A stretch of 64,000 nt of DNA from Antedon bifida (lineage: Eukaryota > Echinodermata > Crinoidea > Comatulida > Antedonidae): NCBI GenBank assembly GCA_963402885.1, contig OY727093.1, positions 1,426,001 to 1,490,000 of the forward strand, read 5' to 3'. The notes beneath the pieces were generated by a model. That model saw nothing but the letters and a program-made list of their open reading frames with translations. It searched no databases and had not been told where the DNA came from. The position numbers and the translations under genes were made by a program. This document shows positions 2,501 to 61,881 of the stretch, piece by piece; the first letter of the stretch is position 1; each line of letters starts with the position of its first letter.

Positions 2501-2508
2501 CAACAAAG
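2501..2508. repeat. Left target-site duplication of the 8.3-kb element
   Basis: CAACAAAG directly precedes the left terminus. (C)AACAAAG directly follows the right terminus at 10830/10831-10837. Confidence 0.7.
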
Positions 2509-2680
2509 GAGGTATATTCAGAACGTCATTCTGACGACTGAAGCATTCTCTACTTCTCTACGGAGCGCCATTTATGCCTTTATTAACTTCAGATATAGTA
2601 TAGAATTAGTACTACTGGTCCAGTGGATCAAATTTGGCATCGGTGGAGCACAGTGATATAGAATAGAAATAAGTCACTAA
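2509..2680. repeat. Left terminal inverted repeat of the 8.3-kb element
   Basis: It matches the reverse complement of 10660-10830, including GACGACTGAAGCATTCTC, CGGAGCGCCATTTATGCC and GAGCACAGTGATATAGAAT, with scattered substitutions and a short diverged stretch in the middle. Confidence 0.75.
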
Positions 2681-2975
2681 TTTAAATATATTTTTGTATG
2701 TTAATACACTGTGCTCAAGTGGACCCAATTTGGCACAAGGGGAGCACAGTGATATAAAATAGAAATAAAATCACTAAAATGTTATATCTCATTCGTATTT
2801 TAATATATAATATAAAATAAAAATAATAAAGTCAATGTATTTTAATATTAAGTTGTTTGTATTTTAATACACTGTGCTCAAGTGGACCAAATTTGGTGCT
2901 AGTGGAGCACAGTAATAAAATAAAAATAAGTCACTGCATTTTAATATTTTTTCGTATGTTAATACACTGTGCTCA
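2625..2975. repeat. Subterminal tandem repeats of the 8.3-kb element
   Basis: The block with CTCAAGTGGACC..AATTTGG, GGAGCACAGT and a following ATA/AAT-rich spacer recurs at about 2625, 2710 and 2875, and partially at 2965. One related unit closes the right terminus near 10680-10720 in inverse orientation. Confidence 0.7.
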
Positions 2976-2998
2976 AGTGGATATGAAATAAAACACGC

Positions 2999-3810
2999 AA
3001 AATATCTCCCTTTCAAAAACGTAGAAGGTCAAACCCAGAGGTGAGAGCACTCAAACCTAAGCATTACACGTTGCGCCACAAATTAGTACATGACTGAACA
3101 GCTGATAATAGTCTATTTATACGTGTATTACGTAATCATCATCATCATCATCTTTTTTAGGTTTTTTGGTAGTCTATTTAATGGATAAATGAATGCCATC
3201 CAACTGTGTTTCTGATTTTTAAAAAGTCCACTTGTTTAGGCCTAGGCCTGACATTTCCAACACTCTAAATATCTTAAATTCTATTTAAAAACAAATATAC
3301 GTAGAGGTTCGAACTCACTCTAGAGCTGAGAGCACTCAAATCTGAGAATTGCTGGAAACGACCCCAAAAGGCTGTTAATTTAGGGTAATATAATGTAAAA
3401 GATTAACAACATCAAAATTCAACTGTGGCGTGTTGACCGCGAATGACTAACAATACCATCTTTCCCACTACACCTGCACAAACTCATTTGCATAACAACG
3501 CCGACATACCAAACTACGATGAGATAATTCTTTTCTAAACACGTACACATTCCTTTTTTTCTGACATTAAAATTATTAGTCATTCGCGGCGGTCAACACG
3601 CCACTGTTGAATTTTGATGTTGTTAATCTTTTACATTATATTACCTTAAATTAACTTGACTCTCTAAATATCTCTGTTTCAAAATAAAAGAAAAACATTT
3701 TATACTTATTAAAAGAAAAAAGAAATCCGTGGAGATTTGAACCCCTGCTAGGAGAGCTGAGAGAATCCATCCAACTATAGTTACTAGAGCACTATCTGTT
3801 ATGCCACAAT
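2999..3810 (-). repeat. Three degenerate minus-strand tRNA-like modules
   Basis: Near 2999-3079, 3299-3350 and 3724-3810 the reverse strand carries decayed versions of the module seen intact at 3912-3975: a GTTCGAACC-like B box, GAGTGCT, and a TGGCGCAACG-like A box. The 3299 copy is truncated and the 3724 copy carries an insertion. Confidence 0.5.
3375..3654. mobile_element. Inverted-repeat insertion (MITE-like) inside the composite element
   Basis: The left arm begins TTAATTTAGGGTAATATAAT and runs through GTGGCGTGTTGACCGCGAATGAC to about 3452. The right arm (about 3572-3654) is its near-perfect reverse complement, so arms of about 80 bp flank about 120 bp. Half-copies of the left side recur inverted near 4435, 5270, 6195 and 6970 and in the duplicate unit, suggesting this piece was a founder of the internal repeats. 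Confidence 0.7.
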
Positions 3811-3911
3811 GTACACAAGTAATTAAGGGTGACAATAAGCTTTCATTCTTAGCTCTGCCCCAACCATGGTGAGCTTTAAAAAAAAAAACAATATTCATAA
3901 AAACAACATCC

Positions 3912-3975
3912 GTCGAGGTTCGAACCCCAGCTGATAGCACTCAAAACTGAGCATTACCCGTTGCACCACAAACTA
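3912..3975 (-). repeat. tRNA-like module, minus strand (T1)
   Basis: Read on the minus strand, TGGTGCAACGGG (3968-3957) is a perfect A box and GGTTCGAACC near 3916-3927 a perfect B box, about 30 bp apart. A T-rich run follows downstream. This is a Pol III promoter-like relic, probably from a SINE head. Confidence 0.6.
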
Positions 3976-4072
3976 AAACATGACTGAACAGCTGATAATA
4001 GTCTATTTATACGTGCATTACGTAATTCATCATTACGTCATAAATATCCTATTAACCTTGTAAAACCAAAAT

Positions 4073-4332
4073 GATCAGTTAGCTCAGTCGTCTGAGCGTC
4101 GTGTTAACACACGTATGTCGTGGGTTCGATTCCCACGCTGGTCGGTGGAATAGAGTTAAAGGCATGCGGCCACTGTGTTTGGGGTTCACAGAATTATACG
4201 TCCCCCTTTCCACCACACATCATGAGGCGACAACATCAATGCATCTGGTGATGTGGTGGAAACGACCCCAAAAGGCTGTGGCAGGGCCTTAGTGCTGAGG
4301 CAGGGAGAGCACATTTAACATCTTTTTTTTTA
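4073..4332 (+). mobile_element. tRNA-derived SINE, copy 1
   Basis: The 71-nt head (4073-4143) has A box TTAGCTCAGTCG, B box GGTTCGATTCC and a 7-bp acceptor stem (GATCAGT with GCTGGTC). Its anticodon loop is shortened to TTAACA. The body carries GGCATGCGGCCACTGTG and CAGGGCCTTAGTGCTGAGG, and the element ends in a run of T. D- and T-arms resemble tRNA-Lys. Confidence 0.75.
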
Positions 4333-5637
4333 TTTAATTTTTTTTTTCAACCTGTATTCGATCTCGTAAATTTTATGTTTGCCGCCCTCAATTTAAAAAG
4401 AAATTGAACTTATTATTTTCATCGCAGGTGTACGAAACGGTTTGGTATGCCGTGCGATGTTATGCAATGGTTGTGCAGGTGCAGTGGGAAAGATGCTATT
4501 GTTAGTCATTCGCGGTCAACACGCCACACTGTTAAATTTTGATTTTGTTAATCAATGTTGCTACATTGGTAGCGAAAACGTCCGATTCATGCAAGATATT
4601 CTATTGTAAAATGTTATGAATAAACTTTGATGGTAGTTGCTATGTATGGCCGCACCGTCCCCAGAATAAACATGTTTTAAACAGATAGTTTGTCTTCGAT
4701 GGTTCTTGTATGGAGATAATGGAGAGTAAAATAAGATCAAATATGGAACATTGGCAAAGATGCCGATTTTTAGACCAATTTCGAAGCTTAGACTAATTCC
4801 GCCGCCGGGTAGGCCTTATACGAAGTCGAGTTTTAAAGTAGAAAACCCCACCTAAAATTTTAAAGTCGCATCTGGATAGTTGAAATGTTAACATTATCAT
4901 AATTATCATATGTGATTATGTATAGTTATAAGTATAAGTGCAATTCTTGGCTCTATTTTCATTATTAGCTCTGCCCCAACCATGGTGGGCTAGTACTGGA
5001 GACTTAATATTTAATTTCATATGTTAATGAATTATAGGAGCACTTTCCGATGACAAGCTCTATTGTCCCTGGTGAATCTTATTAATAGTTTGTTTCATAT
5101 AATTTAAAATCATGTAAAGTGCCATTTTTTTGGGGCGGGAACCTATGCAGCTCTATTTTTCAAAATTATCTTTGCTCAGCCTCAAGCATGGTGGGGTACT
5201 GAAGAGTCTTATACCATGTTTAAAAAAATAATAGATGTCATTTCCGGAGACCTTGCAGCTCTATTTTAACCAGTTTGGTATGCCGTGCGTTGTTATGCAA
5301 ATGAGTTTGTGCAGGTGTATTATGGGCAAGATGGTATGTTAGTCATTCGCGGTCAACACGCCACACTGTTAAATTTTGATGTTGTTAATCTTTACATTAG
5401 AAGATTGTTCAAATCATGTAAATAAAACATTTTCCGGCCGGGAACCTATCAGCTCCCCTCTTTTAGTTTGCAAAAGTAATCTCGAAAAGAATGGATGGAA
5501 AATAATGTCATGCAACTTTGTTTCTGATTTTAAAAAAGGTCCACTTGTTTAGGCCTGACATTTACAACCCTCAAAATATCTCTCTTTCAAAATAAAAGAA
5601 AAAACAATATTAATTATTTAAAAAAAAAAAAAAAAAT

Positions 5638-5709
5638 CCGTAGAGGTTCGAACCCAATCTACTAGAACTGAGAGCACCCAAACCTGAGCATTACCCGTTA
5701 AGCCACAAA
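5638..5709 (-). repeat. tRNA-like module, minus strand (T2)
   Basis: On the minus strand it carries A box TGGCTTAACGGG and B box GGTTCGAACCT, separated by a longer variable part than in T1. It faces away from SINE copy 2, about 100 bp away. Confidence 0.6.
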
Positions 5710-5810
5710 GTAGTACATGCCTGAACAGCTGATAATAGTCTATTTATACGTATATTACGTAATTCAACACTACGTCATAAATATCCTATTAATCTTGTTA
5801 AAACCAAAAT

Positions 5811-6072
5811 GATCAGTTAGCTCAGTCGCCTGAGCGTCGTGTTGACAACACGTATGTCGTGGGTTCGATTCCCACGCTGGTCGGTGGAATAGAGTTAAAG
5901 GCATGCGGCCACTGTGTTTGGGGTTCACAGAATTATACGTCCCCCTTTCCACCACACATCATGAGGCGACAACATCAATGCATCTGGTGATGTGGTGGAA
6001 ACGACCCCAAAAGGCTGTGGCAGGGCCTTAGTGCTGAGGCAGGGAGAGCACATTTACCATCTTTTTTTTTTT
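5811..6072 (+). mobile_element. tRNA-derived SINE, copy 2 (intact 72-nt cloverleaf head)
   Basis: The head (5811-5882) folds as a near-complete cloverleaf: 7-bp acceptor, D stem GCTC/GAGC, anticodon stem with loop TTGACAA (anticodon GAC), and T arm GTGGG/CCCAC with TTCGATT. The D loop lacks the usual GG and the first anticodon-stem pair is T-T, so a functional tRNA is unlikely. A 190-bp body and a T-run tail follow, which marks it as a SINE. Confidence 0.75.
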
Positions 6073-7371
6073 GGCTCTCGCCAACTGCTTTGATGGTTTA
6101 AATTTTATGTTTAGCGCCCTCAATTTATTTTAATGTAAAAAAAGGGAATTAATTCTCTTCGTTATGTGTTTAGAAGAGAATTCATTATATCTCATCGTAG
6201 TTTGGTATGCCGTGCGTTTGTTATGCAAATGAGTGTGCACATGTGTTGTGGGAAAGACGGTATTGTCAGTCATTCGCGATCAACACACAACACTGTTCAA
6301 TTTTTATTTTGTTAATCTTTTACATTAGAATTATATTTCTACCGTTACACATTATAGTGTACTTTTAAATATCCATTTCATGCAAGATATTGTATTGTAG
6401 GCCTACTAATATTATGTTGTGAATAAAAGTTTATGGTAGAATAAATAAATAAATATGTTTTAAGCAGATCTTCGAAATTGAAGCACATATGAAGTCGAGT
6501 TTTTTTAAAACCCAACCTAAAATTCGCATCTGGATAGTTGAAATTTAACATTATAATTATCAAAGGTGATATGATAAATCTAATTGTTTTCTAAATTATA
6601 GAAATATTAAAATTAGTAAGTAGGCTTTTGTGTGCTAGCTCTGTTTGTATTTCATAATTTTGTTTGGTTAAATTACCGTCACGGCCGCGTGCATTGCAAG
6701 TCTCACACTTGGGAAACAATCACCATTGTATGGCTGGTCCTGAAGACTTTTATATTTCGTTTCATAATTTCCGGGGACTAGGCTTTCATTCTTAGCTCTG
6801 TCCCAACCATGTTGAGCTTAACTGGAGACTTAATATTTAATTTCATATTTCAATAAATATTTTTTCAAAATTGTCTTTGCTCAGCCCCAATCACGGTGGG
6901 GTAGTGAAGACTCTTATATATCATGTTTCAAAATACTATAGGTGTCATTTCTGGGGACCTTGTAGTTATTTTAAACAGTTTGGTATTCCGTGCGTTGTTA
7001 TGCAAATGAGTTTGTGCAGGTGTAATGGGGAAGATGGCATTGTTAGTCATTCGCGGTGAACACGCCACAAAATTAAATTTAAAAGTTAAATTTTGATTTT
7101 GCTAATCTTTATTAGAAATTCAAATCATGTAAAGATACAATTTTCCGGGCGGGAACCTAGAAGCTGCCCTCCTTTAGTTTGCAAAAGTAATCTTGAAAAG
7201 AACCCCATGCGGAAAAGAAGATTACCCGTTGAAAAGAAGCCCACCGTATCCAAGAGTACTAAAAAATGAGGAACACATGGGCTCTTTTTGCGGTTTTATG
7301 GTGTCTATTTAATGGAAAAGTGAATGCCATACAAAATAAAAAATAAAAAAAAACAATATTCATAAAAAAAA

Positions 7372-7436
7372 TATCCGTCGAGTTTCGAACCCCAGCTGAT
7401 AGCACTCAAAACTGAGCATTACCCGTTGCACCACAA
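7372..7436 (-). repeat. tRNA-like module, minus strand (T3)
   Basis: Duplicate of T1 in the second 3.46-kb unit. The A box is intact, while the B box differs by one base (GTTTCGAACCCC on the plus strand). Confidence 0.55.
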
Positions 7437-7537
7437 ACTGAAACATGACTGAACAGCTGATAATAGTCTATTTATACGTGCATTACGTAATTCATCATTA
7501 CGTCATAAATATCCTATTAACCTTGTAAAACCAAAAT

Positions 7538-7796
7538 GATCAGTTAGCTCAGTCGTCTGAGCGTCGTGTTAACACACGTATGTCGTGGGTTCGATTCCCA
7601 CGCTGGTCGGTGGAATAGAGTTAAAGGCATGCGGCCACTGTGTTTGGGGTTCACAGAATTATACGTCCCCCTTTCCACCACACATCATGAGGCGACAACA
7701 TCAATGCATCTGGTGATGTGGTGGAAACGACCCCAAAAGGCTGTGGCAGGGCCTTAGTGCTGAGGCAGGGAGAGCACATTTAACATCTTTTTTTTT
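7538..7796 (+). mobile_element. tRNA-derived SINE, copy 3
   Basis: Duplicate of copy 1 with the same shortened anticodon loop. It reached this site by tandem duplication rather than by independent insertion. Confidence 0.75.
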
Positions 7797-9107
7797 ATTT
7801 AATTTTTTTTTTCAACCTGTATTCGATCTCGTAAATTTTATGTTTGCCGCCCTCAATTTAAAAAGAAATTGAATTTATTATTTTCATCGCAGGTGTACGA
7901 AACGGTTTGGTATGCCGTGCTATGTTATGCAATGGTTGTGCAGGTGCAGTGGGAAAGATGCTATTGTTAGTCATTCGCGGTCAACACGCCACACTGTTAA
8001 ATTTTGATTTTGTTAATCAATGTTGCTACATTGGTAGCGAAAACGTCCGATTCATGCAAGATATTCTATTGTAAAATGTTATGAATAAACGTTGATGGTA
8101 GTTGCTATGTATGGCCGCACCGTCCCCAGAATAAACATGTTTTAAACAGATAGTTTGTCTTCGATGGTTCTTGTATGAAGATAATAGAGAGTAAAATAAG
8201 ATCAAATATGGAACATTGGCAAAGATGCTGATTTTTAGACGAATTTCGAAGCTTAGACTAATTCCGCCGCCGGGTAGGCCTTATACGAAGTCGAGTTTTA
8301 AAGTAGAAAACCCCACCTAAAATGTTAAAGTCGCATCTGGATAGTTGAAATTTTAACATTATCATAATTATCATATGTGATTATGTATAGTTATAAGTAT
8401 AAGTGCAATTCTTGGCTCTATTTTCATTATTAGCTCTGCCCCAACCATGGTGGGCTAGTACTGGAGACTTAATATTTAATTTCATATGTTAATGAATTAT
8501 AGGAGCACTTTCCGATGACAAGCTCTATTGTCCCTGGTGAATCTTATTAATAGTTTGTTTCATATAATTTAAAATCATGTAAAGTGCCATTTTTTTGGGG
8601 CGGGAACCTATGCAGCTCTATTTTTCAAAATTATCTTTGCTCAGCCCCAAGCATGGTGGGGTACTGAAGAGTCTTATACCATGTTTAAAAAAATAATAGA
8701 TGTCATTTCCGGAGACCTTGCAGCTCTATTTTAACCAGTTTGGTATGCCGTGCGTTGTTATGCAAATGAGTTTGTGCAGGTGTATTATGGGCAAGATGGT
8801 ATGTTAGTCATTCGCGGTCAACACGCCACACTGTTAAATTTTGATGTTGTTAATCTTTACATTAGAAGATTGTTCAAATCATGTAAATAAAACATTTTCC
8901 GGCCGGGAACCTATCAGCTCCCCTCTTTTAGTTTGCAAAAGTAATCTCGAAAAGAATGGATGGAAAATAATGTCATGCAACTTTGTTTCTGATTTTAAAA
9001 AAGGTCCACTTGTTTAGGCCTGACATTTACAACCCTCAAAATATCTCTCTTTCAAAATAAAAGAAAAAACAATATTAATTATTTAAAAAAAAAAAAAAAA
9101 AAAAAAA

Positions 9108-9183
9108 ATCCGTAGAGGTTCGAACCCAATCTACTAGAACTGAGAGCACCCAAACCTGAGCATTACCCGTTAAGCCACAAAGT
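9108..9183 (-). repeat. tRNA-like module, minus strand (T4)
   Basis: Duplicate of T2, preceded by an expanded A run on the plus strand (a T run downstream of the module on its own strand). Confidence 0.6.
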
Positions 9184-9282
9184 AGTACATGCCTGAACAG
9201 CTGATAATAGTCTATTTATACGTATATTACGTAATTCAACACTACGTCATAAATATCCTATTAATCTTGTTAAAACCAAAAT

Positions 9283-9543
9283 GATCAGTTAGCTCAGTCG
9301 CCTGAGCGTCGTGTTGACAACACGTATGTCGTGGGTTCGATTCCCACGCTGGTCGGTGGAATAGAGTTAAAGGCATGCGGCCACTGTGTTTGGGGTTCAC
9401 AGAATTATACGTCCCCCTTTCCACCACACATCATGAGGCGACAACATCAATGCATCTGGTGATGTGGTGGAAACGACCCCAAAAGGCTGTGGCAGGGCCT
9501 TAGTGCTGAGGCAGGGAGAGCACATTTACCATCTTTTTTTTTT
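9283..9543 (+). mobile_element. tRNA-derived SINE, copy 4 (intact head)
   Basis: Duplicate of copy 2 with an identical 72-nt cloverleaf head (9283-9354). The body ends in a T run. Confidence 0.75.
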
Positions 9544-10659
9544 GGCTCTCGCCAACTGCTTTGATGGTTTAAATTTTATGTTTAGCGCCCTCAATTTATT
9601 TTAATGTAAAAAAAGGGAATTAATTCTCTTCGTTATGTGTTTAGAAGAGAATTCATTTTATCTCATCGTAGTTTGGTATGCCGTGCGTTTGTTATGCAAA
9701 TGAGTGTGCACATGTGCTGTGGGAAAGACGGTATTGTCAGTCATTCGCGATCAACACACAACACTGTTCAATTTTTATTTTGTTAATCTTTTACATTAGA
9801 ATTATAATTCTACCGTTACACATTATAGTGTACTTTTAAATATCCATTTCATGCAAGATATCGTATTGTAGGCCTACTAATATGTTGTGAATAAAAGTTT
9901 ATGGTAGAATAAATAAATAAATATGTTTTAAGCAGATCTTCGAAATTGAAGCACATATGAAGTCGAGTTTTTTTAAAACCCAACCTAAAATTCGCATCTG
10001 GATAGTTGAAATTTATTAAAGGTGATATGATAAATCTAATTGTTTTCTAAATGATAGAAATATTAAAATTAGTAAGTAGGCTTTTGTGTGCTAGCTCTGT
10101 TTGTATTTCATAATTTTGTTTGGTTAAATTACCGTCACGGCCGCGTGCATTGCAAGTCTCACACTTGGGAAACAATCACCATTGTATGGCTGGTCCTGAA
10201 GACTTTTATATTTCGTTTCATAATTTCCGGGGACTAGGCTTTCATTCTTAGCTCTGTCCCAACCATGTTGAGCTTAACTGGAGACTTAATATTTAATTTC
10301 ATATTTCAATAAATATTTTTTTAAAATTGTCTTTGCTCAGCCCCAATCACGGTGGGGTAGTGAAGACTCTTATATATCATGTTTCAAAATACTATAGGTG
10401 TCATTTCTGGGGACCTTGTAGTTATTTTAAACAGTTTGGTATTCCGTGCGTTGTTATGCAAATGAGTTTGTGCAGGTGTAATGGGGAAGATGGCATTGTT
10501 AGTCATTCGCGGTGAACACGCCACAAAATTAAATTTAAAAGTTAAATTTTGATTTTACTAATCTTTATTAGAAATTCAAATCATGTAAAGATACAATTTT
10601 CCGGGCGGGAATCTAGAAACTCCCCTCCTTTGTGATATGGGTATATACGAAACGGTATT

Positions 10660-10830
10660 AAAAGTAAGTTTTATTTCTATTTTATATCACTGTGCTACCC
10701 TGGTGCTGGGTCCACTTGAGCAGTTAACGTAGTGCTATTTCTATTATTGAAGTTAATAAAGGCATAAATGGCGCTCCGTAGAGAAGTAGAGAATGCTCCA
10801 GTCGTCAGAATGACGCTCTGAATATACCTC
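10660..10830. repeat. Right terminal inverted repeat of the 8.3-kb element
   Basis: Inverse of 2509-2680. It carries GGCATAAATGGCGCTCCG, GAGAATGCTCCAGTCGTC and the terminal CTGAATATACCTC, followed by AACAAAG. Confidence 0.75.
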
Positions 10831-10837
10831 AACAAAG

Positions 10838-12323: not shown

Positions 12324-15300
12324 GTAAGTAAATTCTCTTGTAAACCGGTTTGTTTCCATTTCTTTTGTGAGTAGGTAATGTTATGGTGTTCAGAATGTTC
12401 AGCCAACCGTACGCATGTCGTCGGGGGAAGCCCACTTGGTCTTTGCCTGAGTTCAGCAACTTTGAGTAGCCTGGATAGAAGAGACACGAAGATGATTTCA
12501 GATTGTATATGTATTTGATTTTCGTAACAAATTGTGGAAATTGTTTCATGATAGTTGTGAATTATAATTTTATAAATTTAATAATAACTAGAATTTAATT
12601 TGTCACTTTGACGAATTATAGGTGATCATTTTTATCATTTTTATTGACATTAATATTTTTAAACATGCACGTATGTTAACATACGATCGGAAAATGTTGA
12701 TGTATGCCATCCTATTATATACGCTTATAGTGCTGAGTTGTGCCTATTATATGCCATATACATTATGTACAGTATATACTGTATATCTATATACAGTGTA
12801 GCATTGGTGAAATTACAGACACACATCATGTTCTAATTTTTTTGGTATGATGACATTATCAAAATAAACTTGTGGATAACAAGATCGAAAGATAATGAAT
12901 TAAGCAATAAAATATAACAATTGGAAGAAAATTTGGCACGTAGAAGCGCGGTGAACGCTCTTTGAAATTTGTATAACTTTTATGAAAGAGACAAAAAAAC
13001 TACTTTTTAACTTCAACTGGCCATATCATAATGTCACAACATCCGATAGACTTAACTTTTATATGAATTCATATCTACATTTCATCAGCTTTCATAATCA
13101 ATTATAATCATCAAGGTCACCTTTAATTCTTAAAAGCTGTGAGATATTCAAATTTACGGTGAAGGTCAAATTACACAACCTACGTTATTCAAGTTTTTAC
13201 GCGTGATGACGCCATCAAAATAAAATGATGGCAACTCATGATAAAGATAATTAATATAGCAAGCACATACTGAAATCTGAGTGAAAATCGGGCTCAAATA
13301 ACGGAGATACGCTCTATTGAATGTGATAATCTACAAAAAAAGATAAAAAATCCTAATTTTTAAATTCAAGTGGCCATTTGATGACGTCACAAAATGTTGT
13401 ACGTCAAATGTGTACATGAATTCATCTCTACAACTCAGTAGCTTCCATAATAAGTTAAAAAAATTGGGGGTCACCTTCCATTCTGAAGAGTTATATTCAT
13501 TTTAAAAAGGTCTTATTTTTTACCATTTTTAGCACTTTTGTACAATTAATGTGCGCATTTTGTCATTTTTAACGTGCTCGTATAGCTCTATTTTAAGTCA
13601 GAATGGACTCAAAATCGGTGAATGTACTAAGAATTGTGAGTAGAATATGATTTATACATCACATTTTATTTTTTACGCTTTCTAAGATTCGCGTGCGCAA
13701 AAACGTGTTTTTGCGCAGTAATTTTTTGAAACACGCAAATGGCCTAATTCATGCTCTAAATTGATCAAAACTTAATTTTGAGCTTTTTAAATTTTTAACA
13801 CATGATTTCACGCTTATGACCTTGAAACGCGCAAGTTCTTATTTGCTAATATTTTTACCCTTGACCTGAAGTTTACGTGTAGTGAATTTCATTAATATGT
13901 GATAATGAATTATGGAGATATGATTGATAATGTGATTTCACAAAATGGCGTATAAATGACGTCACGGTTGAGTGATCACGCTGAAAAGCTTATTAGGATT
14001 AAGTTACAGTATTTGAAAGATATTGTAAAATTTTTGTGAACATTGACATTTTACATTTTGAGATAATTGACACACAAAATCTGTACAGAAAGAAATAAAG
14101 CGGAATAAGATTTCATACAATAACAATAGGTGATCATTTTATTCTAAATGATCACCTAATTAGGCCTACAACCATATTCTCTATAAAAAAAAATCATAAC
14201 AATATGTTCAATTATTGTGTGTAAATATTTAGTTTCTGTTTGATGTCAGACGATGTGACTAAATAGTTTATTTATTATAATTTATTTATTATGCCAATAA
14301 ACAAAAAGTAAAACTATTAGAATTTACTCAACTTTCCAACAAAACATGGTAAGCCGTGGTTATAAAGAATACGGCCTTAGGTTTTAACTTAAAGTATGCT
14401 TAATCTTAGTATGAGCATATGCTTAATCTAAGTATGAACGTATGCTTAATCTTAGTATGAACATATTATGAACGTATGCTTAATCTTAGTATGAACGTAT
14501 GCTTAATCTCAGTATGAACGTATGCTTAATCTTAGTATGAACGTATGCTTAATCTTAGTATGAACGTATGCTTAAAGATGTATTGTCCCCCTGAAAAAAT
14601 AATTCTTAAAGAATTTTTTGTTGAATATTCCATTTTATTGTAACATAACAGTTATCCACTTTGTCCAAAAATTAGATCGAAAAAAAATGTATTTACCTGA
14701 AAAAAAGTGTAATTTAAAGCAACAAATGGTCAAATTGACTGCTAGTTGATTGAATTTAACCATTTATTTTGTCATTTTGTAAGTGAAAACGTTTTTTTTT
14801 TCTATGGAAGTGATTAACTTTATTAAAACTACAAAATAACATAGTCTGATTTAATTAATCTGAATTTTATGTAAGTATGAACATATGCTTAATCTTGGTA
14901 CTGAGCGTATGCTTAATCTTAGTTTTATTAGCATACAGTATGCTTAATCTTTTCCTTAATAAAATGAAAGAGGATGGAAAAGTAGTGGTTTCAGCTTCCT
15001 TCCTGAATGAATCCATTTGAAACCATTGCACCACATGAGCATCCTCACTTACAAATTAAAGCATGTATAATAAGTACAAACACCTTGGTATAAGGAAATA
15101 ATACATTACCAGGTACTTAATGATGAAATGTTTTCTGGAAAAAGACCCTAATACTCCCTAATACTCCCTGCTACCCAATTATTCGCCCTTTAAGAATTCC
15201 CATTAAATGTATAGAAGATAGTTCATAACTTTTCTATTTTAACAAATACAGGGTTTTTTTTTCATGAAATAAAGTGTGTTTTGGAAATTCTTCCTCATTT

Positions 15301-18300
15301 TGTTTTGAATTTGTTTATTCTGTAAGTGAAAGCTTAATGAAAGATTGATGATTGAATGAAATATACATGAATGTACAGTATTTATAACAGCACACCTAGG
15401 AGACTGGGATTTTCCAACCTTAAATCTACATTCTTGTAAAAGAATAAAGAATTTTGTATACAGTATCAAGCAATGTTATAAAAGAGATGTTCTGACCTTC
15501 TGACAAGCTGACAATGACTAATTAGTAAAAGTAATATGAAAAATATTCTTAATGGAACCTTTAACATTATTGATTGATAAAGGTGACAAATTGGACATGC
15601 CATTTAATGCAGCAAACTTGATAGGCTTCAAGTGTTCAAGTGTAATTGGTTGTGAAATTTATCATTGTAATGTAGTTAAAATGATACATTTTTACACAGT
15701 GGATTAGTATGAATTTGACACACAAAGTTAACATTTAAATTACTAAGTACAAACTAAAGTATCCCTTAGTGATGTCCCCTGAATAGGTGTTGTGGTCGTG
15801 TAGTGTTAAAACATACATATTACCCCTTGTATTGTTAATTTCATTGTGTCAAAGTGTCTTCTTAATAGGGGTGAATAGGAGTGTTGCTACTGTATAATGT
15901 TATTAATTCTGTACTGTAAACTTTTCCTATAAAGGTTTCTTTTGATGACAGGCACAATTTGGGGTTTTATGGATTTATTTTATCAGAACCGAATTTGGTT
16001 AAATTATTCTTTCAGTTACAAATGAACATAAAGATAAATTGGAGAAATCTGAGGAGACAACCAGCAGATTCAAACAATTTAAACGCAGAATTTCAATTAA
16101 AGGAATCAAACGATGTAAGTATGGTTTCAAACTTATGGAATTTAAATTACAAAGTCCTCTGTTCAAATCCTATTTGATTCTATAATCTCAAACAATCGAA
16201 AATAACTTTATTTGATAAGATTCCATTATTAAGCTATATCTACACTATCAAACTAGTGTGATGTGCCCAAATATGGTAGTGATATGACATCATCATGTCC
16301 ATATATGGGAACATCACATTTTTTGTCACATAAACTTTGTAGACAGAGCTATTGAACTGTTTGATATTCTATTCTGTTTTTTGTTTTGTTTTACTCCAAT
16401 TCATGTTATCTGTTGTATTTCTATTTATCTTTTTATTATGCAATACTACCAGTAATTTACCCATCTAGTGACCATGAATTCTTAGCATTTGTTGTTCTGT
16501 TTATTCCGTTTTTTCAATTGTTATATCTGAAAATTAAAGTTTTCAAGTAATGTGACCAAATAAATAAAAGTGTGCAAAGAGAAAGAGTCTATGCTGCTAG
16601 ACATAAGATACCATTAATTAAAAAATTAAGATTATATTACAAAAATAAATGAATGCACATTATAATAATAATAATATTAAATATTGATATTAATTATGTT
16701 GGTTCAGTGATCACCTTACATAGTGTAAAGCTCTGTCTACACTATCAAACTAGTTTGACAAAAAAATGTGATGTGCCCATATATAGACATGATGATGTCA
16801 TATCACTACCATATTTGAGCATATCGCTACCATATTTGGGTACATCACACTTTGTTTGATAGTGTATGCGTCAGAAATGAAAACACTGAAAATTCGTAAT
16901 TTTATGCAAGGGTCTCGACTGAAGCCTCTTGATTTATTCTCGCAATAGGCTACGTGAAAACAAGAAGCAACATAAATCAACAATGGTCAACTAATCACGA
17001 CATTATACAATAGTGATATTAATTATTATTATTTCTAAGAAGTTTTAATCTATATTGTTTATCTTTTCGTATCAGTTGTTGTCAGCAACTGTCTCATTTA
17101 CATGTCAAATCCTGAACCATAACCTACTGTATATAAAATAGAGAGTGTTCGCATAGTCTAAGACTGCATTTACAGTGTGGACAGAGCTTTACAGAGTGTT
17201 AGCCAAACCTAATGGCAATGAAATTAACTGTTTCCCAGATCTGTAAGTTTCTTTGTTGTCACATTTTCATTCTCTCTGCCCACGTTTCTGGTTTTCTTTG
17301 TTGTTGTATGATTCAGAAATTTGAAATTATGAATAAATTATTCTCTGGACAATTTTCTTTGTTGGTATTCTTCATAGGGATTTGTACGACTGATAGGCGT
17401 TGCCAAATCTTTTTTTTTAAATAATTGTTTTGATTATATTTGTGGGTTCAACCAGGTAAATTCATTAAGATATTCCATTAAATGACTCAGATAAGATAAA
17501 AAAAAAATATGAATATCAAAGGGTATAAAGTAAGCATATTTAGATAAAACTAGGTGTGGCCTTAAACTAGGTGTGGCCTTAAACTTGCGAACCTTTAGGT
17601 TAGGCAACCTCGCCCACCTCCACCCCAACTCTTTACATCCATACCAACTGAAATGATTTTCATAGCAGTGATTGAAATGGTCTTTGATGGATACTTAACG
17701 TATAGTCCAGCAGATAAAACACCTGTAATTCAAAGTATAGTCCAGCAGATAAAACACCTGTAATTCAAAGTATAGTCCAGCCGATAAAACACCTGTAATT
17801 CAAAGTATAGTCCAGCAGATAAAACACCTGTAATTCAAAGTATAGTCCAGCAGATAAAACACCTGTAATTCAAAGTATAGTCCAGCAGATAAAACACCTG
17901 TAATTCAAAGTATAGTCCAGCAGATAAAACACCTGTAATTCAAAGTATAGTCCAGCAGATAAAACACCTGTAATTCAAAGTATAGTCCAGCAGATAAAAC
18001 ACCTGTAATTCAAAGTATAGTCCAGCAGATACAACACCTGTAATTCAAAGTATAGTCCAGCAGATACAACACCTGTAATTCAAAGTATAGTCCAGCAGAT
18101 ACAACACCTGTAATTCAAAGTATTGTCCAGCAGATAAAACACCTGTAATTCAAAGTATAGTCCAGCAGATAAAACACCTGTAATTCAAAGTATAGTCCAG
18201 CAGATACAACACCTGTAATTCAAAGTATAGTCCAGCAGATAAAACACCTGTAATTCAAAGTATAGTCCAGCAGATAAAACACCTGTAATTCAAAGTATAG

Positions 18301-21300
18301 TCCAGCAGATACAACACCTGTAATTCAAAGTATAGTCCAGCAGATACAACACCTGTAATTCAAAGTATAGTCCAGCAGATAAAACACCTGTAATTCAAAG
18401 TATAGTCCAGCAGATACAACACCTGTAATTCAAAGTATAGTCCAGCAGATAAAACACCTGTAATTCAAAGTATAGTCCAGCAGATACAACACCTGTAATT
18501 CAAAGTATAGTCCAGCAGATAAAACACCTGTAATTCAAAGTATAGTCCAGCAGATACAACACCTGTAATTCAAAGTATAGTCCAGCAGATAAATCACCTG
18601 TAATTCAAAGTATAGTCCAGCAGATAAAACACCTGTAATTCAAAGTATAGTCCAGCAGATAAAACACCTGTAATTCAAAGTATAGTCCAGCAGATACAAC
18701 ACCTGTAATTCAAAGTATAGTCCAGCAGATAAATCACCTGTAATTCAAAGTATAGTCCAGCAGATAAAACACCTGTAATTCAAAGTATAGTCCAGCAGAT
18801 AAAACACCTGTAATTCAAAGTATAGTCCAGCCGATACAACACCTGTAATTCAAAGTATAGTCCAGCAGATAAATCACCTGTAATTCAAAGTATAGTCCAG
18901 CAGATAAAACACCTGTAATTCAAAGTATAGTCCAGCAGATAAAACACCTGTAATTCAAAGTATAGTCCAGCAGATAAATCACCTGTAATTCAAAGTATAG
19001 TCCAGCAGATAAAACACCTGTAATTCAGACACATTGTTTGGATGACCATTGGTATAAATTGAATCAAATATGGATTATGAAATGATAACATTGAATACAA
19101 GAATAAGTTATAGAAAGAATTAATGTAAATTACAATATTTTGACTATTTTACCATTTTTATATATAAAATTTCTACTTTGTTTTCAACCGTGTTTGATAT
19201 TTAAGAGGCTTAAAACATCCAACTTTTGTTCAGTTACACAGTTTTATAATTTACATCTGAATTGCATTGATTTCTTGGAACTTGATTTCTAATCGCCCAT
19301 TTTGACATTTTTATTAATCGTTTGATTTCATTGTTTATAGTTAGGATTTTCTCATAAAAACAATATTTATTGTTATGTGTGCAAAAATCTAAAATTCTTT
19401 AAATAGGGAATACTTTCTCGTAATGTCTGCATCAGTTGTACTCAATGTGTACTCCCAAACTGGACAAAAATACCATACAAACTTGAATGTTAATATGCCT
19501 TTCTGCAGTGGCTTATATACAGAGGCCGAAATTCCCCTGGTTAAGGGCCCCCAAGTGGCCATTCAATGTTTGAAGGCATTTTTAGTCTTTTTTGCTTGCT
19601 TATTACTTCTGGGTCGTGCCTGCTCAAGGGGCCCTTTAAGCTCTTAAGGCTCCTGGTAGCCAGTGAGCGCTCATAGCTGTTACATCACTACACATAATAC
19701 CCTCCAACTAGGTAATTGCATTGGGCTGCTCATGCTCCAGGCCTCCTTTTAACCCCATGGGTTTAGCCAATGTGCGCTCATAGCAGTTATGGGACTGCCT
19801 TTCTGTAACATTTCAATAATGCAACTGAAAGTTGAACAACCGACTTATTTTGCTATCTGTTCCATTACGTGAATCTCGTGAACACTGGCTGTAAAGAACG
19901 TGATTGTATGAACCTTGAACCCTCTAACACGCTTCAACGTTAACTTGTCAATTGACTTTTAAAATAATACCTACTTAAATATTATTATGACACGAACATG
20001 TGAAATGAAAACCAAATAGATTCTGAAAATTAATAAATTAAATATTTTACAGAGTTAAAGTATTGATTGAAATTTAAAAGTTCAAAGGTTAAGTGTCACT
20101 TTTTGTTTGACATTTCAGGGCCCTTTTTTTGCTCTTAACATAGGTAAATAATTTAAATAAGATCAACCACTTAATTAAAGAACAACCTTATTCATGGAAC
20201 AGTCTTGTAAGTTTATAGATATGTTTTAATATAATAATGGTTGTCACTTCTGGCATATTTTAAAATATTTTTCTGATTTTTACACAATATTACCAAATTG
20301 TTTTACAGTTAGTACTGTATGTAGTGATATTCCACTTATTCAGATATTACTGCAGTAGTAGTATTTTATTCTGCCAAATCATGTTGTACCATCAATTATA
20401 TTACCGACAGTGGAATTATGGGATTGATGAACTTTTACGGGCAGACAACGAGAGCGATTCAAGCAATCTGTTACAGCACCACTTGAGCTTCTCAAAGTTA
20501 ATGACGGCCTGGTGTGATAGTTGACAGCACTTAGGCTTGTTTCTATAGTTACCGTTGATACACCTACATCATGTTGTGTCTTCGTCAGCTGATAAATATT
20601 CAGATAATGTTTGTGATTTGTTAAAATAGTTTTACTTGTAAAGTAATTATTATAATACTTTCATAAGTTATGGAGTCATTGCATTGTTTTTATATTTTGT
20701 TTATCTTTTAATTGGAAATTTGTTTCAGTAATTACGGAGGGACTTTTTTTTTAAAGGATTTTTTTGGTAGTTTTAGTAAAGTAGTTTTAACTACTTTACT
20801 AAAACTACAAAAAAAAAAAAAGTGGGTATATATACTTTGATCACATACAGTACTTAGATTTAAAGTCCTCTATATCCAGACCCAATTGGTCCAATCCTGG
20901 TGTTTTTTGTATTCTTAACTTCTGATCATATATTACTGGCATGATACTGTATGATGTCACCCATACATAGTATACAATACTGTATTTGCATCATCTTGTA
21001 GTCGAACCTAGTGGCCATTAAGGCAGGGGTACCGCAACTTGTACCCACAAAATCAGCATAGGTTCAAGGCTCTTCTCGGCCGTAGTAATGGTGGTAGAAT
21101 AAGTCGTCTCTGATAAAGAGACTTAACTTTCTTTATTAATAAGTTCATCCAAAGAGTCTTTGTAGTGCACACCTGTTTACAATTCAGCCCAGTAGACTGC
21201 AAGACAACTTACTCTTCTATACTTGCATATTTAAATTTATATTTTATTAATTCTGTAACAAATACTCAATTAAAATGCAATTTTTTTTAATGACATTGTC

Positions 21301-39300: not shown

Positions 39301-42300
39301 AATTAAATTGAGTAGCTCTTCTATTTGCCAAATTTACCGTGGTAATTTTGTGAAATTGGCATGTAAAGGTTGTTAGGGTTACATCATATCTGTGATATTT
39401 GCCAAGATACAAACATTTGCTGGTTGATTTCAAACTAAATAAGCCTACAAGGTTGATTAAATTACATACTACTATACATTCCTGTCAATGTTTTCAGGTT
39501 TTCTTTCTATGTGTTCTAAAAGATTTGTTTCAACTACAAGAAAATAAATGAATTATTAAAACAAATTGTAGATATAGAATCTTGAAACAATTTTCTTTAA
39601 TCACAAAACATGAATAATAATTTATGCATAAATAATTTGTTTTTCACTGTAGAACCAACACCAACCAAATTGTAGCATTAAAAGAGATTCATTTACAAGA
39701 GGAAGAGGGCGCACCATTTACAGCAATACGAGAAGCATCGTTACTAAAGAAGTTGAAGCACGCCAACATTGTTCGTCTACACGATATTATTCACACAAAG
39801 AAATCGTTAACATTTGTATTTGAGTATGTGGTAAGTATAATAAGTTTGAGAAATAAGTGGAGATAAATAAATTGTTTTGACCCACCAATAAAAGATCCCT
39901 AACATCACTTTCTGTGAATCAGTGAACACATTAATTATACCTAATTAACGTTATTTTAAGTCAACTGAATTTGCTGAAGACAAAAGCCAAATTCCTTGTA
40001 GTGGTTTTATTTTGAATTACCACAAGAAAGAGGAATTTCCGTTTTTCCAACAATACCAGATAATCTTTCACTTCCATTTGTAGATCTTAAGATTGTGTCA
40101 AGTACACATTTGTAAGACTATTATGCATTGTACATTATATTAACTAGTATAGTGGTCAACACTTGTGTTTGAATTTATAGAAAATACCATAAAAGTTCAC
40201 TCAACAATGTGTACTTTATTTGAAGGAATGTTAAGATTTAAGTTACTGACTTTCTTTCATTACACATCAATATTCTCTTATTTCCCTTCTTGTTCTTATT
40301 TATTTTTTTATTTATATCTTTTCAATACAAATGTACTGATTTTTAAAGTGGTTCAGTAACTACAACATTTTCAATAATAACAACATTTATACAATATCAA
40401 GCAATATAGGAAAGAAGACATTATTATTGTATAATAAGAGTGTTTTTATCTCTGAAAGAAAGTAGTTAAAATGTTGTTTATCAGGATTCATGTCTCTTAA
40501 GTAGTTGGTAGGATTATGTTAGAGAATGTTGGAATGTTGTAATGTTGATTTAATAGTGTGTGAGGTAATGTTATATTAATCAGAACACGGCACAGTAAGT
40601 ACAGTAGGCTAACAAACAAGCCTAAGTAACCACTTACACAAGATAATGTACAATGATTTTGAAAACGTGAAAAACATGTAAATATTGAAAATTCGCAGTC
40701 TGAATAGACTTAGCCAGAAGGTAAAATTTGTTTAGTTTAATCTTGTACGGGTTTATTCGTTGACATTTTTATGCGATGTACACCATTAGGTAAATATTGT
40801 GATTGTGAAGCTATCTACAGGAGGATAAATCTGAATTTATAAACATCATTATAATAATTATGTTTTATTTAGCTGATTCTCAGTATTAAATTCGTCCAGT
40901 ATTATATAATATTAGACAAACATTACCATATATGGAGATACATTTTTCTTATCATACACATTTATACATAATATTACATTTAAAAGTTGTGATTCCTTCA
41001 GTAAATGTAATCCATGTGTTTGCAGTGTATGGACGAAAAATGTTTACCTAGAGACATTACGTTTGTGTGTTGACAATTTTCCATCGGTTAATGCCACTTT
41101 TATTGGCCATTTATCAGCAGAATACAGAGACAGTCAAATAATAGTTGGACTTTAATAAGAAATTGATCACTAAGATTCTAGAATAATTTAAGAAGCTTTC
41201 TTTTGCATTGGTAATAAATTGTGAAATTGTTGATAAAGTTTAAATAATTACTATTGTAATTATCACGATTATCATTATCATTATTACAATCTTATTACCG
41301 TAATTATAATCAACACTATCTTTATAATCATCATCAATTCAAACATCTTCATCATTTAATAAAGACATCAATATCTTTATAATCATCATATCATCATCTT
41401 TGTCGCCGTCATCATCATCGTCATTATATTCCCATCATCAATAATAATTTGCTAGCATTCTCACCTTCATTATGTCATCATTGTTATCAACATTAACATT
41501 TTTCTCTTCCTCAACATATTATCTGCACTATTGTCATTGTTTCCGCATGGAGTCAAGAATAATTACTCCATTGTTTCCGTCTTTACTAGGTCTTAGATAT
41601 TTGTTGAAAGTAATAATGACATTATTTCTACCTATACCTTTCTAAACTATACAAACTAATAATAGTGATTATTTTTAGAAATAACAACATGTTATGTTAA
41701 CAAACAACATAAAATTGATTCAGTGTTCTGGATTTTCCTGGCGGGAAATGTTAAGTACTAATAGGTTCCTTTGACCTTATCCATATTTCCGGTATAGGAT
41801 CTTATCTCAAGGAAGCGTCCTGAAAGATCCATGGAAATGTTGTTGCTGGGAATTCAGTTGGAAGTATTAAGTGGTTCAATATTACTGGATGTGGTTGTTG
41901 TTTTAATTTTTGACAAGTGTCGTTTGAACGCTCTATTGCTAGGTTAATGACTATTGTAGGATTGAATGAGGCAACTACTATTTTATTTGTTTAATAACGC
42001 AAACAGATTAATAAGATGTGTATCAAAAATGTATTATTTTGAACTTTACCATAACTAATTTTTTCATGCTATATAAGAAATACACAAAAACCTAAAAAAT
42101 TTAAAGAAAGGGGGAAAAAAGGCAATTGAAAATGGAGTAAAATTTGTTTTCTTTTGAGCTATCCAGTCTTTGACTTTACTTTCCACTTAAGTGCGAAATT
42201 ATTTTATATTCATATCCTATTTATTGTTATTATTTTGCAGAACACAGACTTAAATACACACTTAGAGAACCAAGGAGGTAGTCTACACCCAAGCAACGTT

Positions 42301-45300
42301 TGTCTGTTCCTCTTCCAGTTATTACGTGGCTTAGACTTTTGTCACAGGCAGCTTATTCTTCATCGGGACTTAAAACCACAGAATATTCTTATTAGTGAAA
42401 ATGGCGAGTTGAAACTTGCTGATTTTGGTGAGGATTTCTTAAAATTGTTTTTGTGTTTTTCACAAAAATATCATCAATATTATCATCAAAAGTAGCTGTA
42501 TACTTGTACCCAGTAATCTATTTTTCTATTTTGTGCTTAACTTACCTGGATAAACCAACAATAGCCCATGCTCTACTGAAATGATGATGCTGGTACCTTT
42601 ATGTGGTTGGGTGATTGGTCCATTATTCTAATGGGATGTTCAAGGAACTTCTATAGACGATTGGATGCTTAGCCATTTTTGTAAAGGGTTGTACAAGAAA
42701 CTTTTCATGTCGTAGCTTCCTCCCAGAAGAGCATGGTCTATTTTCGGTTTGTCCAGGTATAGCGGAACTCAGATTAATAATAAAAATATTCGTTCTTAGA
42801 TAGCGCTTATTGCACAATTCTTCCAAGCGCTTTACATTATTACCCTGGTAATTGTAACACGTATGGAAACATACTCCCATAATGCAGTTAGTAATCAGCG
42901 CAAGGTTGTGTCTTGACCTACCCATGGTTACACCTGGATTACCAACACTATACTATTGGTTTGTGTATTAATACATTAAGCCAATCAATTAAAGAATTTC
43001 TCATAAAGAGCGATTACAAAATTCTTCACTCTCCGTCTTTTTCAATAGTTTTTAACTATTATCTTAGTATTACATTAAATGAGAGACTTTATATGTAGCT
43101 AAGTATTGTGATTCCTGCTACATTGAAATAATTGGCAATAAGTAGCTAGTGGCAGGGTAATAAACAAAGGGATTACCGTGGCGACTGATGTACATCGTGC
43201 CATGCATTAAAAGTAAAAACGACAACATTATTTACATTTTATATTACGAATGTGATACATCGATGTTATAGATATTAATTTATAATATCAGGTTTCTTTA
43301 TTTATGTAAAAAACAGGCTTAAAAAATGTACACTAACATTATCAAAGAACCTGAAATTGATTTGTATCAACAAAAATAAAATTTTAAAAAATATATACAA
43401 AATTAAAAATTGATCCACATAAAATATATATATCTCAGTTATTTAGTAATTTATGCTTTACAGTAGATTTAAATAAAGCTTATACAGTAGTAGTATTAAT
43501 CGTGTCTATACTTATGTAATTTGACAAACAAATATTTTATCTGACCGTCAAATGTAATTAGGTCTATATGTAATGTTATTCTGCCTTCAATTAATTTTGT
43601 ACTTTCATTCGCGTCTTACACTTTATTTTGATGTCACACTGATTTGAAGAAGGCATTTCGTTAATGAATTGATTGAAAGTACCTGAAAATAGAAAATAAC
43701 ATCTGTGTAACTTAATAAGTGTGTATTGTTGCTGTAACCTCGTTAACAGCTTGAATGTTGAAATTATACAGTACATAAAAACAGAATCGTAATAGGGGAT
43801 TCATGATGCGGGTGGTCAGGGGAGCAGGGTTTGGGCGGGGAAAGCCACCCCACCCATCAACCCTAAATTCTGAAAATTGCAATACAAAAAATAGGACATG
43901 TTAATTTCAGAAGTTTATTTTACAATTTTAGGCCCTCATCCTTCTCTATTTCAAAATGCTTGATACAATATCACTGAACATGATTAACAAATATAAAAGA
44001 TAAAATTTAATGAAAATGACACAAAATCTTTTTTTTCTAGGCCTAGCCAGAGCCAAGTCGATACCGAGTAAGACCTATTCACATGAGGTTGTAACACTAT
44101 GGTACCGGCCTCCTGATGTCCTCCTAGGCTCAAAAGACTATTCAATACAGTTAGATATGTGGTAAGAAACTTGTTAAGGAATTTAAATAATTATAGAACA
44201 TTTTATTAGTCTATATACTAATCATAATGGTATAATACTCTTTACTTTTGAGATGTTTTCGTTATTTGAATGGACATAAGTCCTTGTGAAGAATTTTGTA
44301 GGCCTACTATTGGACAATTGCAGTGCTGATCATTGCACTGTATTGGATGTGGGTTCTTAGAAGACCAAATCAAAAAGCAATTTAAATTTTATTGAAAGTT
44401 ACTTTTTCTACATTTTGTAATTCCGCACTATATATACTATACTACTTGCTTTATCTATTATTTGGTAATAATTCGCGAGGTCATCCACTTTGCTGCCCGA
44501 CTGTACAGTACACTTTCTGTGCATGAATAAATAATATATTTATTGCCATTTTCTTATTATTTTCAGGGGTGTAGGGTGTATTTTTGTTGAAATGATCACA
44601 GGCCAAGCATTATTTCCTGGAATGAAAGACTTCAAAGACCAGCTAGAGAGAATATTCAAGGTAGGCCTAGAATTCTCTCACCCATCTCTGGTTTCTGTGT
44701 TAAGTTAAATAAAACAAATACATCTTGCATACCATGTTCTACAGACACCTGAAATAAGGTTCCTGCTGTGTCATACTATTGCTAGAATCATAGTAGAGCA
44801 TTATCTAGTCTTGCTAGCATTTAGAAAATATACTCTCTGGCTCTTGGGAATTCTTAATACAGGATTAAGAATCAATGTATCTTGTTGTACAGGTCTCCCT
44901 TAAAGGCCAGGTACCGAACTAAAATGTTAGTGGTTTTAAGCTCTGTCTACACTATCAAACTAGTTTGACAAAAAAAGTGTGATTACGTGCCCAAATATGG
45001 CCACTGTGGTCATATTCACAATTCACACTTAGGCTAAGGGAAACATAAGGGAATTAAGAAAATCTAGGTGAATACAATTTCAGGGAAATCTGGTGCCTAA
45101 CTAGAATTTGAGTGGTCATGGCAAATTGTCTTGAATTAATGTCAAATGGTCAATTAGTCACATATACAGTAGCCTAATAGTGTGACCTGTGAAATGTATT
45201 TATTTTCTAACAGATTTAACAGATAAGAAAGACAGATTCAGTAAATTATTAAATTCCACCAATGAAATTTATCTAATTTTTATATATTTATTTCTTCATT

Positions 45301-61729: not shown

Positions 61730-61881
61730 CTGTAAAAAATAGAGGAACAAACGATTCTCTCTGCTTCTCCAAACAATTCTGAGAAGCTGAGCGACCGGAT
61801 ATAGAAAACGAAGTTGTCAATGATTGGCTGTGGAAAGTGCTTTTAATGATTTTGATATTGGAAGAAAAAGGAAGTATTACT

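Follow-up and report, generated by a model that had tools for sequence, protein, structure and literature searches.

A non-autonomous inverted-repeat DNA transposon family in the crinoid Antedon bifida that carries units of a uniform tRNA-headed RNA gene

Introduction

Genes of RNA polymerase III (Pol III) in mobile elements are known from short interspersed elements (SINEs), of which the tRNA-derived kind has a tRNA head with A and B boxes followed by a tail and a T-run. They are also known from long terminal repeat (LTR) elements such as Cassandra and Helenus; in the available part of one account Helenus, Ajax and Cassandra, terminal-repeat retrotransposons in miniature (TRIMs), are non-coding LTR retrotransposons whose direct terminal repeats hold the RNA gene and which have kept a Pol III promoter of tRNA or 5S origin (PMC10886601). 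Here we describe an element with inverted ends and RNA genes in its interior, found in a 64,000-nucleotide stretch of Antedon bifida (assembly GCA_963402885.1, contig OY727093.1, positions 1,426,001–1,490,000 of the forward strand; hereafter the window, in whose coordinates positions are given). The element occupies positions 2509–10830 (8322 bp), is bounded by inverted termini of ~160 bp, and is probably one copy of a many-copy, non-autonomous, foldback-like DNA transposon family with terminal inverted repeats (TIRs), whose cargo is a homogenised, perhaps selected, array of Pol III RNA genes.

Among TIR elements, Galileo of Drosophila (P superfamily) has 7-bp target-site duplications (TSDs), long TIRs and tandem repeats of variable copy number inside or beside the TIRs, and RNA genes are not mentioned in the available portion of its description (PMC3573991). 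The foldback Tetris of Drosophila virilis is non-autonomous, with TSDs of 8–10 bp and tandem repeats within its TIRs that vary in copy number and seed satellite arrays; in the part of that account at hand a Pol III gene is likewise not mentioned (PMC4079207). Dada elements are DNA transposons tied to small RNA genes, which, as far as the excerpted source goes, they use as targets; their TSDs are 6–7 bp and the described families have no TIRs (PMC3706591). For an array of Pol III genes in the interior of a TIR element, we found no description in the open-access literature at the level of titles and abstract openings.

Paired termini and 7-bp target duplications

The two termini of the window element align, one against the reverse complement of the other, with 83% identity over 170 columns, and their outer 90 nt are 94% complementary. 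Among all inverted pairs in the 64-kb window this alignment scores highest (173 bits), although pairs of spacer sequence within the element reach up to 172 bits. The heptamer AACAAAG directly adjoins both ends as a direct 7-bp target duplication; the probability of such a 7-mer match at random window positions is 1.8e-4. The termini begin GAGG, and the ends common to the family read GAGGTATATTCAG...CTGAATATACCTC, with GAGGTATATTCAG present in the majority of 42 aligned termini.

We searched the genome from which the window derives (315.6 Mb, 27 contigs) with the terminus, scored 40 of 673 first-look candidates and fetched 20 stretches around the best termini. Paired-end elements of 2.3–6.8 kb were found at 17 of these 20 loci, so that termini there occur in pairs, the opposite of the unpaired termini that an earlier note on this stretch had named as a refutation of its reading; the other three loci (L010, L015 and L025) have one end only within the fetched stretch and are hence longer or unpaired. 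Together with L029, which was fetched as a pair, and the window, these make a set of 19 paired elements, 2296–8322 bp long and located on several contigs. A 7-bp duplication is exact in eight of them and has one mismatch in two, exact duplications of 6, 8 or 9 bp occur in 0/19, and the eight exact TSDs have no common target sequence. Because the termini pair at other loci with their own 7-bp duplications, we conclude that such units move as one piece, which bears out the earlier note's proposal that the long inverted ends and AACAAAG bound a single mobile unit. That note had set the start at 2501, which would permit an 8-bp duplication, CAACAAAG; here the family data decide otherwise, fixing the length at 7 bp.

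RNA-gene units, described below, lie in 18 of the 19 paired elements, L011 being without any. The window element had been taken for a one-off composite, and this we reject, as many other loci have these ends together with these units. Interiors hold from one to at least four units in nearly fixed orientation: among 13 elements whose ends can be told apart by a CTG versus a TGG variant, every RNA gene runs from the TGG end to the CTG end in 12, and L016 has one each way. The element at L009, a close relative, is collinear with the left part of the window element (2822–3904, 89%) and with its right end (90%) but holds a single full unit where the window has four; copies with flanks of the same build can therefore have arrays of different length. 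On one insertion as against stepwise growth, the alternatives set out in the note, the picture is mixed: whole elements do insert, yet the interior grows stepwise, as the window's A-B-A-B order with its 98.6% duplication and the single unit of L009 indicate.

Copy number was gauged with a 23-mer from one tail variant, which has 142 exact matches in the genome (reversed control, 0). At one site, where units have either of two bases, this 23-mer matches just the base found in 20/42 sampled units, and we infer from this a total of ~300 units. A tail 23-mer has no match in either the bacterial/archaeal or the viral contig collection. Neighbouring matches are mostly 1.7–1.9 kb apart (range 1497–2366 bp).

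Some individual copies and the distribution of matches may be recorded here as separate observations. Seven 23-mer matches follow one another at ~1.77-kb spacing at C7:35.36–35.37 Mb. Among the 100 matches listed, 95 lie on seven contigs of known length (C1, C7, C8, C9, C11, C12 and C13) and form 65 clusters. These lean towards contig ends, which may not be chromosome ends: 45 of the 65 are no more than 2.5 Mb away from one, where 16% would be expected. The L011 copy has long arrays of subterminal units on both sides (L011:2194–5665) and is flanked by GTATATT, a heptamer inside the family's own terminus, adjoining the end of another copy; it is an apparent self-insertion and a possible satellite seed. 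At L010:1002–3324 a family terminus is adjoined by a palindrome of 2.3 kb, which matches itself in reverse complement at 93%.

A tRNA-headed RNA gene within a larger unit

The RNA gene is ~250 nt long and consists of a tRNA-Val-like head with internal A and B boxes, a 177-nt tail and a T-run. At the Rfam gathering score the only matches in the window element are its four tRNA-like genes (50.8, 50.8, 40.9 and 40.9 bits), and a lax threshold adds weak tRNA-like viral elements over the same four genes. Most units also have a minus-strand tRNA-like module, placed head to head with the first across a ~90-bp promoter-like region; in the window this module is too degenerate for an Rfam match. As read from the sequence, TATA-like stretches lie ~27–35 bp from each start within the ~90 bp between the heads, a distance that suits Pol III. 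The tail folds with a z-score of -2.44, and 3 of 200 shuffles fold equally well. We also considered an H/ACA or C/D small nucleolar RNA in the tail and rejected it, motif candidates being present with unconvincing folds.

These signals were examined in 42 units from 22 loci, units with <200 bp of gene being left out. The A-box pattern together with the B box is intact in 41, the T-run in all 42 and TATTTATA in 40, while ACGTCA is found in 36 and TACGTAA in 33. The first anticodon base is A in 21 units, G in 19 and T in two, and the next two bases are AC in 41/42; therefore valine anticodons dominate. In 11 of the 42 the anticodon loop is shortened, which makes a role in translation unlikely for these copies.

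The earlier note had described the tRNA-like sequences as SINE heads, a description that comparison of their surroundings does not support. When the genome was searched with head and tail, all 40 copies scored were 99–100% identical over essentially the whole query. Sixteen of these, lying outside the earlier loci, were fetched, and in 16/16 the gene has the promoter-like region on one side and the unit spacer on the other. Counting tails of at least 150 bp over all loci examined, both flanks are present in 57 of 59. Of the two exceptions, each with one side, the second copy in L041 is cut by the end of the locus and a copy in L019 has no upstream match; solo tails number 0/59, and no other copy occurs in the rest of the 64-kb window. 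The family resembles tRNA-derived SINEs in its Pol III head and T-run but differs in that the gene is not seen dispersed by itself, belongs to a larger unit carried by a TIR element and shares its upstream DNA among copies, and an ordinary SINE insertion is rejected for the copies examined.

Uniformity of the RNA gene and exchange between units

Between-locus identity of the 42 units, taken per 25-bp bin, is 0.946–0.998 over the gene, 0.862 in the T-run bin and 0.43–0.96 in the spacer bins. Diversity was measured in 15 A-type units, one per element, after 24 gap-rich columns had been dropped from the downstream spacer. In this set nucleotide diversity (pi) is 0.0225 in the gene against 0.085 in the downstream spacer, a difference of about fourfold, and variable sites number 27/251 against 160/428 (Fisher p = 6.6e-15, in a test that treats sites as independent). 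Within this one spacer type the rise comes as a step where the terminator lies: pi is 0–0.014 in the six 10-bp bins that close the tail, 0.12–0.22 in the two that follow and 0.0975 on average over 4349–4434.

Within the window, the spacers of units A1 and B1 differ at 352 of 1081 aligned sites, with 27 gaps besides, whereas the block 3934–4322 differs at 18 of 388 sites with two gaps. Most of the block differences fall in the minus-strand module and the promoter-like region, leaving 2/74 in the plus-strand head and 1/177 in the tail. The more recent duplication of the window shows one change in 778 block sites against 21 in 2297 spacer sites (p = 0.024 for A and B together, 0.48 for A by itself and 0.077 for B by itself). 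In 8/8 parts compared, units resemble others of their own element more closely than those of another element.

Coding capacity

The longest open reading frame (ORF) of the window element is 99 aa, whereas in 200 shuffles the longest averaged 105 aa. ORFs of at least 45 aa number 59 against a shuffle mean of 45, a count raised by the near-identical duplicate units, and six ORFs compared with Pfam gave no match; a protein-coding remnant in the window element was rejected on these grounds. The sole Pfam match among the ten element ORFs scanned is RVT_1, in L024, and this reverse-transcriptase ORF is taken as an insert and not as the element's own gene. A fragment of up to 755 bp lies beside one end in L012 (4700–5455), L018 and L025, and L009 and L013 have pieces of it. 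It looks like the C-terminal part of a long interspersed element ORF and was on that account rejected as a transposase.

Discussion

The family is filed here only as a non-autonomous TIR DNA transposon family of class II, on the basis of paired inverted termini at several loci and a TSD of fixed 7-bp length. It shares with Galileo, in the features that the available text covers, the 7-bp TSD, long TIRs and tandem subterminal repeats, and with Tetris, under the same limit, a non-autonomous foldback-like build with tandem repeats that vary in copy number; in its ends and in internal tandem growth it works like these foldback-type elements. Unlike Tetris it has a 7-bp TSD; it also carries Pol III-type genes, which the text at hand does not mention for Tetris. 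A Mutator-type foldback of the Tetris kind was rejected because no paired element has an exact TSD of 8 or 9 bp. Ends of the P superfamily typically begin CA. The termini here begin GAGG and no transposase was found among the ten element ORFs scanned with Pfam, and for these reasons we do not claim membership of the P superfamily. Like Cassandra and Helenus the family encodes no protein yet keeps a Pol III gene, but its ends are inverted, with the genes lying inside as units and not in the ends, and its TSD is 7 bp, which sets it apart from a TRIM with a small-RNA gene. Dada, in the families described, targets RNA genes where the present family carries them, and was rejected because TIRs are present here and the exact TSDs lack a common target sequence.

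The structural part of our reading, namely insertion of whole elements with a 7-bp duplication, variation in array length and a uniform RNA gene, we hold with high confidence. As to mechanism, a transposase supplied in trans would cut and paste the whole element, and unequal exchange or crossing-over within a copy would alter the number of its units. RNA polymerase III would transcribe the gene, and the likeness of the transcribed stretch in different elements may be due to selection, to exchange centred there, or to both. The transcript or its transcription might then help the copy that carries it; our best guess is a benefit in cis, in which binding of Pol III factors or transcription keeps the copy open for mobilisation.

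What the RNA gene does is the point on which the explanations part. It may be a working part of the transposon, selected in a TIR element that has no protein of its own, with transcription or the RNA aiding mobilisation or escape from silencing; a selected role is a possibility that we advance tentatively. It may instead be a neutral passenger, a tRNA-derived sequence captured long ago and homogenised by gene conversion and unequal crossing-over, with the spacers too rearranged to convert and an RNA that does nothing. We regard this account as possible if somewhat doubtful. It is favoured by the greater likeness of units within one element in all parts compared, by the window's A and B tails, which have a single difference while their spacers differ by about 35%, and by the behaviour of the tail, whose divergence is about 1.1–3.3% in every bin of spacer divergence from <3% to 50% and whose two haplotypes are each found with both spacer types. 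Because purifying selection alone predicts neither this flat divergence nor the sharing of haplotypes, exchange between units matters and is real in these comparisons. Set against the passenger account are the boxes and T-runs, intact in nearly all units, and the recent window duplication, in which the block changed less than the spacer at the combined significance given above. Moreover, the rise in diversity at the terminator is present even among units of one spacer type, whose homology is unbroken; exchange alone does not readily explain this step, which exchange centred on the transcribed stretch (for example via complementary DNA) or selection on the transcript would explain.

Two further readings are less probable. 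A host gene for a lineage-specific Pol III RNA, picked up and dispersed by the transposon and conserved by a need of the host, would fit the strong uniformity and the intact promoter signals; we consider it improbable, as no tail examined stands alone, Rfam at the gathering score gives tRNA only, and the copy number inferred would leave each copy nearly dispensable to the host. That the tRNA modules are ordinary SINEs, inserted in a DNA transposon and later duplicated, is suggested by their tRNA-derived head, A and B boxes, structured tail and T-run, all of which resemble a tRNA-SINE. The recurrence of one larger unit around nearly all tails and at every locus chosen for its RNA gene, the likeness of the copies also in the DNA that precedes the RNA start, and the lack of further copies in the rest of the window make this reading very improbable.

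Several results weigh against a mobile family with a working RNA gene, beside the flat tail divergence and shared haplotypes already named. Nine of the 19 paired elements have no convincing TSD, two of these (L012 and L026) having a damaged end, and no transposase or autonomous copy was found among the six ORFs scanned in the window element and 4 of the 12 ORFs of at least 110 aa in other elements. ATAAATA on the plus side is present in only 23 of the 42 units and the B box of the minus module in only 26. Nine partial matches fall outside the 42-unit set, four of them L015 copies with diverged first few bases. Compensatory changes were seen in 0 of 69 predicted pairs of the RNA gene, which varies too little for covariation to test the fold. 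Finally, part of the diversity step falls in the T-run itself, and a second stretch of low diversity (4355–4394, pi 0.013–0.065) lies past it.

If the RNA gene is a working part, the family would represent DNA transposons that have an accessory gene without a protein product and have multiplied it into an array in their interior. Selection on the gene would mean that dependence on a non-coding RNA gene extends to DNA transposons. Were it homogenised and no more, the family would show sequence exchange between dispersed repeats with its edge marked by a Pol III transcription unit. On either reading the family offers a route from transposon to satellite-like array, together with hundreds of tRNA-like loci that could inflate tRNA annotation.

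Anatomy of the window element and its surroundings

The interior of the element has a GC content of 36% against 32% for the window. From the left end follow subterminal units, degenerate remnants, a foldback and the units A1-B1-A2-B2 of ~1.73 kb each (Table 1). A 3.47-kb tandem duplication (3880–7175 against 7345–10631) is 98.6% identical over 3.3 kb, and each duplicated half is itself an older A/B dimer of ~1.73-kb units. The tandem subterminal units, foldback and large duplications named in the earlier note are thus all found. The foldback has TTAA close to both outer edges and may have arrived separately, as a small insertion at a TTAA target.

Table 1 Features of the window element, in window coordinates
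Feature	Position	Strand	Basis or remark
Left 7-bp TSD, AACAAAG	2502–2508		7-bp length as in other copies with a TSD
Left TIR, starts GAGGTATATTCAG	2509–2672	+	Inverted-pair alignment; 42 aligned termini
Subterminal tandem units (~95 bp), partly common to inner TIR end	2616–2990	+	Repeat comparison; L011 arrays longer
Degenerate remains of units, with tRNA-like modules (minus strand), one half of the promoter-like region and a 26-bp piece of tail (3350–3375)	3020–3373		Sequence comparison
Foldback from inverted unit-spacer copies, 67-nt arms, 97%	3374–3655		Also present in L009
Unit A1	3880–5588	+	Self-alignment
A1 minus-strand tRNA-like module, A/B-box-like, degenerate fold	3908–3982	-	No Rfam match
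Minus-strand module counterparts in B1, A2, B2	about 5636–5715, 7373–7447, 9108–9187	-	Same module
A1 tRNA-Val-like head, 6-nt anticodon loop	4072–4145	+	Rfam, 40.9 bits
A1 177-nt tail and T-run	4146–4331	+	Unit alignment
Unit B1	5589–7344	+	Self-alignment
B1 ~90-bp region between head-to-head modules, TATA-like and ACGT motifs	5716–5809		Putative promoter
Promoter-like region counterparts	about 3981–4071, 7446–7536, 9188–9281		Putative promoters
B1 tRNA-Val(GAC)-like head	5810–5884	+	Rfam, 50.8 bits
B1 177-nt tail and T-run	5885–6072	+	Unit alignment
Unit A2, recent duplicate of A1	7345–9060	+	Self-alignment
A2 tRNA-like head, tail, T-run	7537–7796	+	Rfam head match, unit alignment
Unit B2, recent duplicate of B1, 3' side shortened	9061–10631	+	Self-alignment
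B2 tRNA-like head, tail, T-run	9282–9543	+	Rfam head match, unit alignment
Right TIR	10671–10830	-	Inverted-pair alignment
Right 7-bp TSD, AACAAAG	10831–10837		7-bp length as in other copies with a TSD

Elsewhere in the window, a further repeat at 12580–14158 is 87% like L009:7601–9240, which lies inside the element of that locus. A satellite of 35-bp units occupies 17700–19027 (about 38 copies, 97% matches), and a dispersed repeat with a 21-bp minisatellite (CATATCACTACCATATTTG-like) occurs in both orientations at 16799, 30005, 33924 and 49323. Three ORFs outside the element were scanned with Pfam and two gave clear matches: a kinase exon at 42130–42495 (Pkinase), presumably CDK-like, and an ORF at 61783–62610 with a Frizzled domain and a hydrophobic C-terminus.

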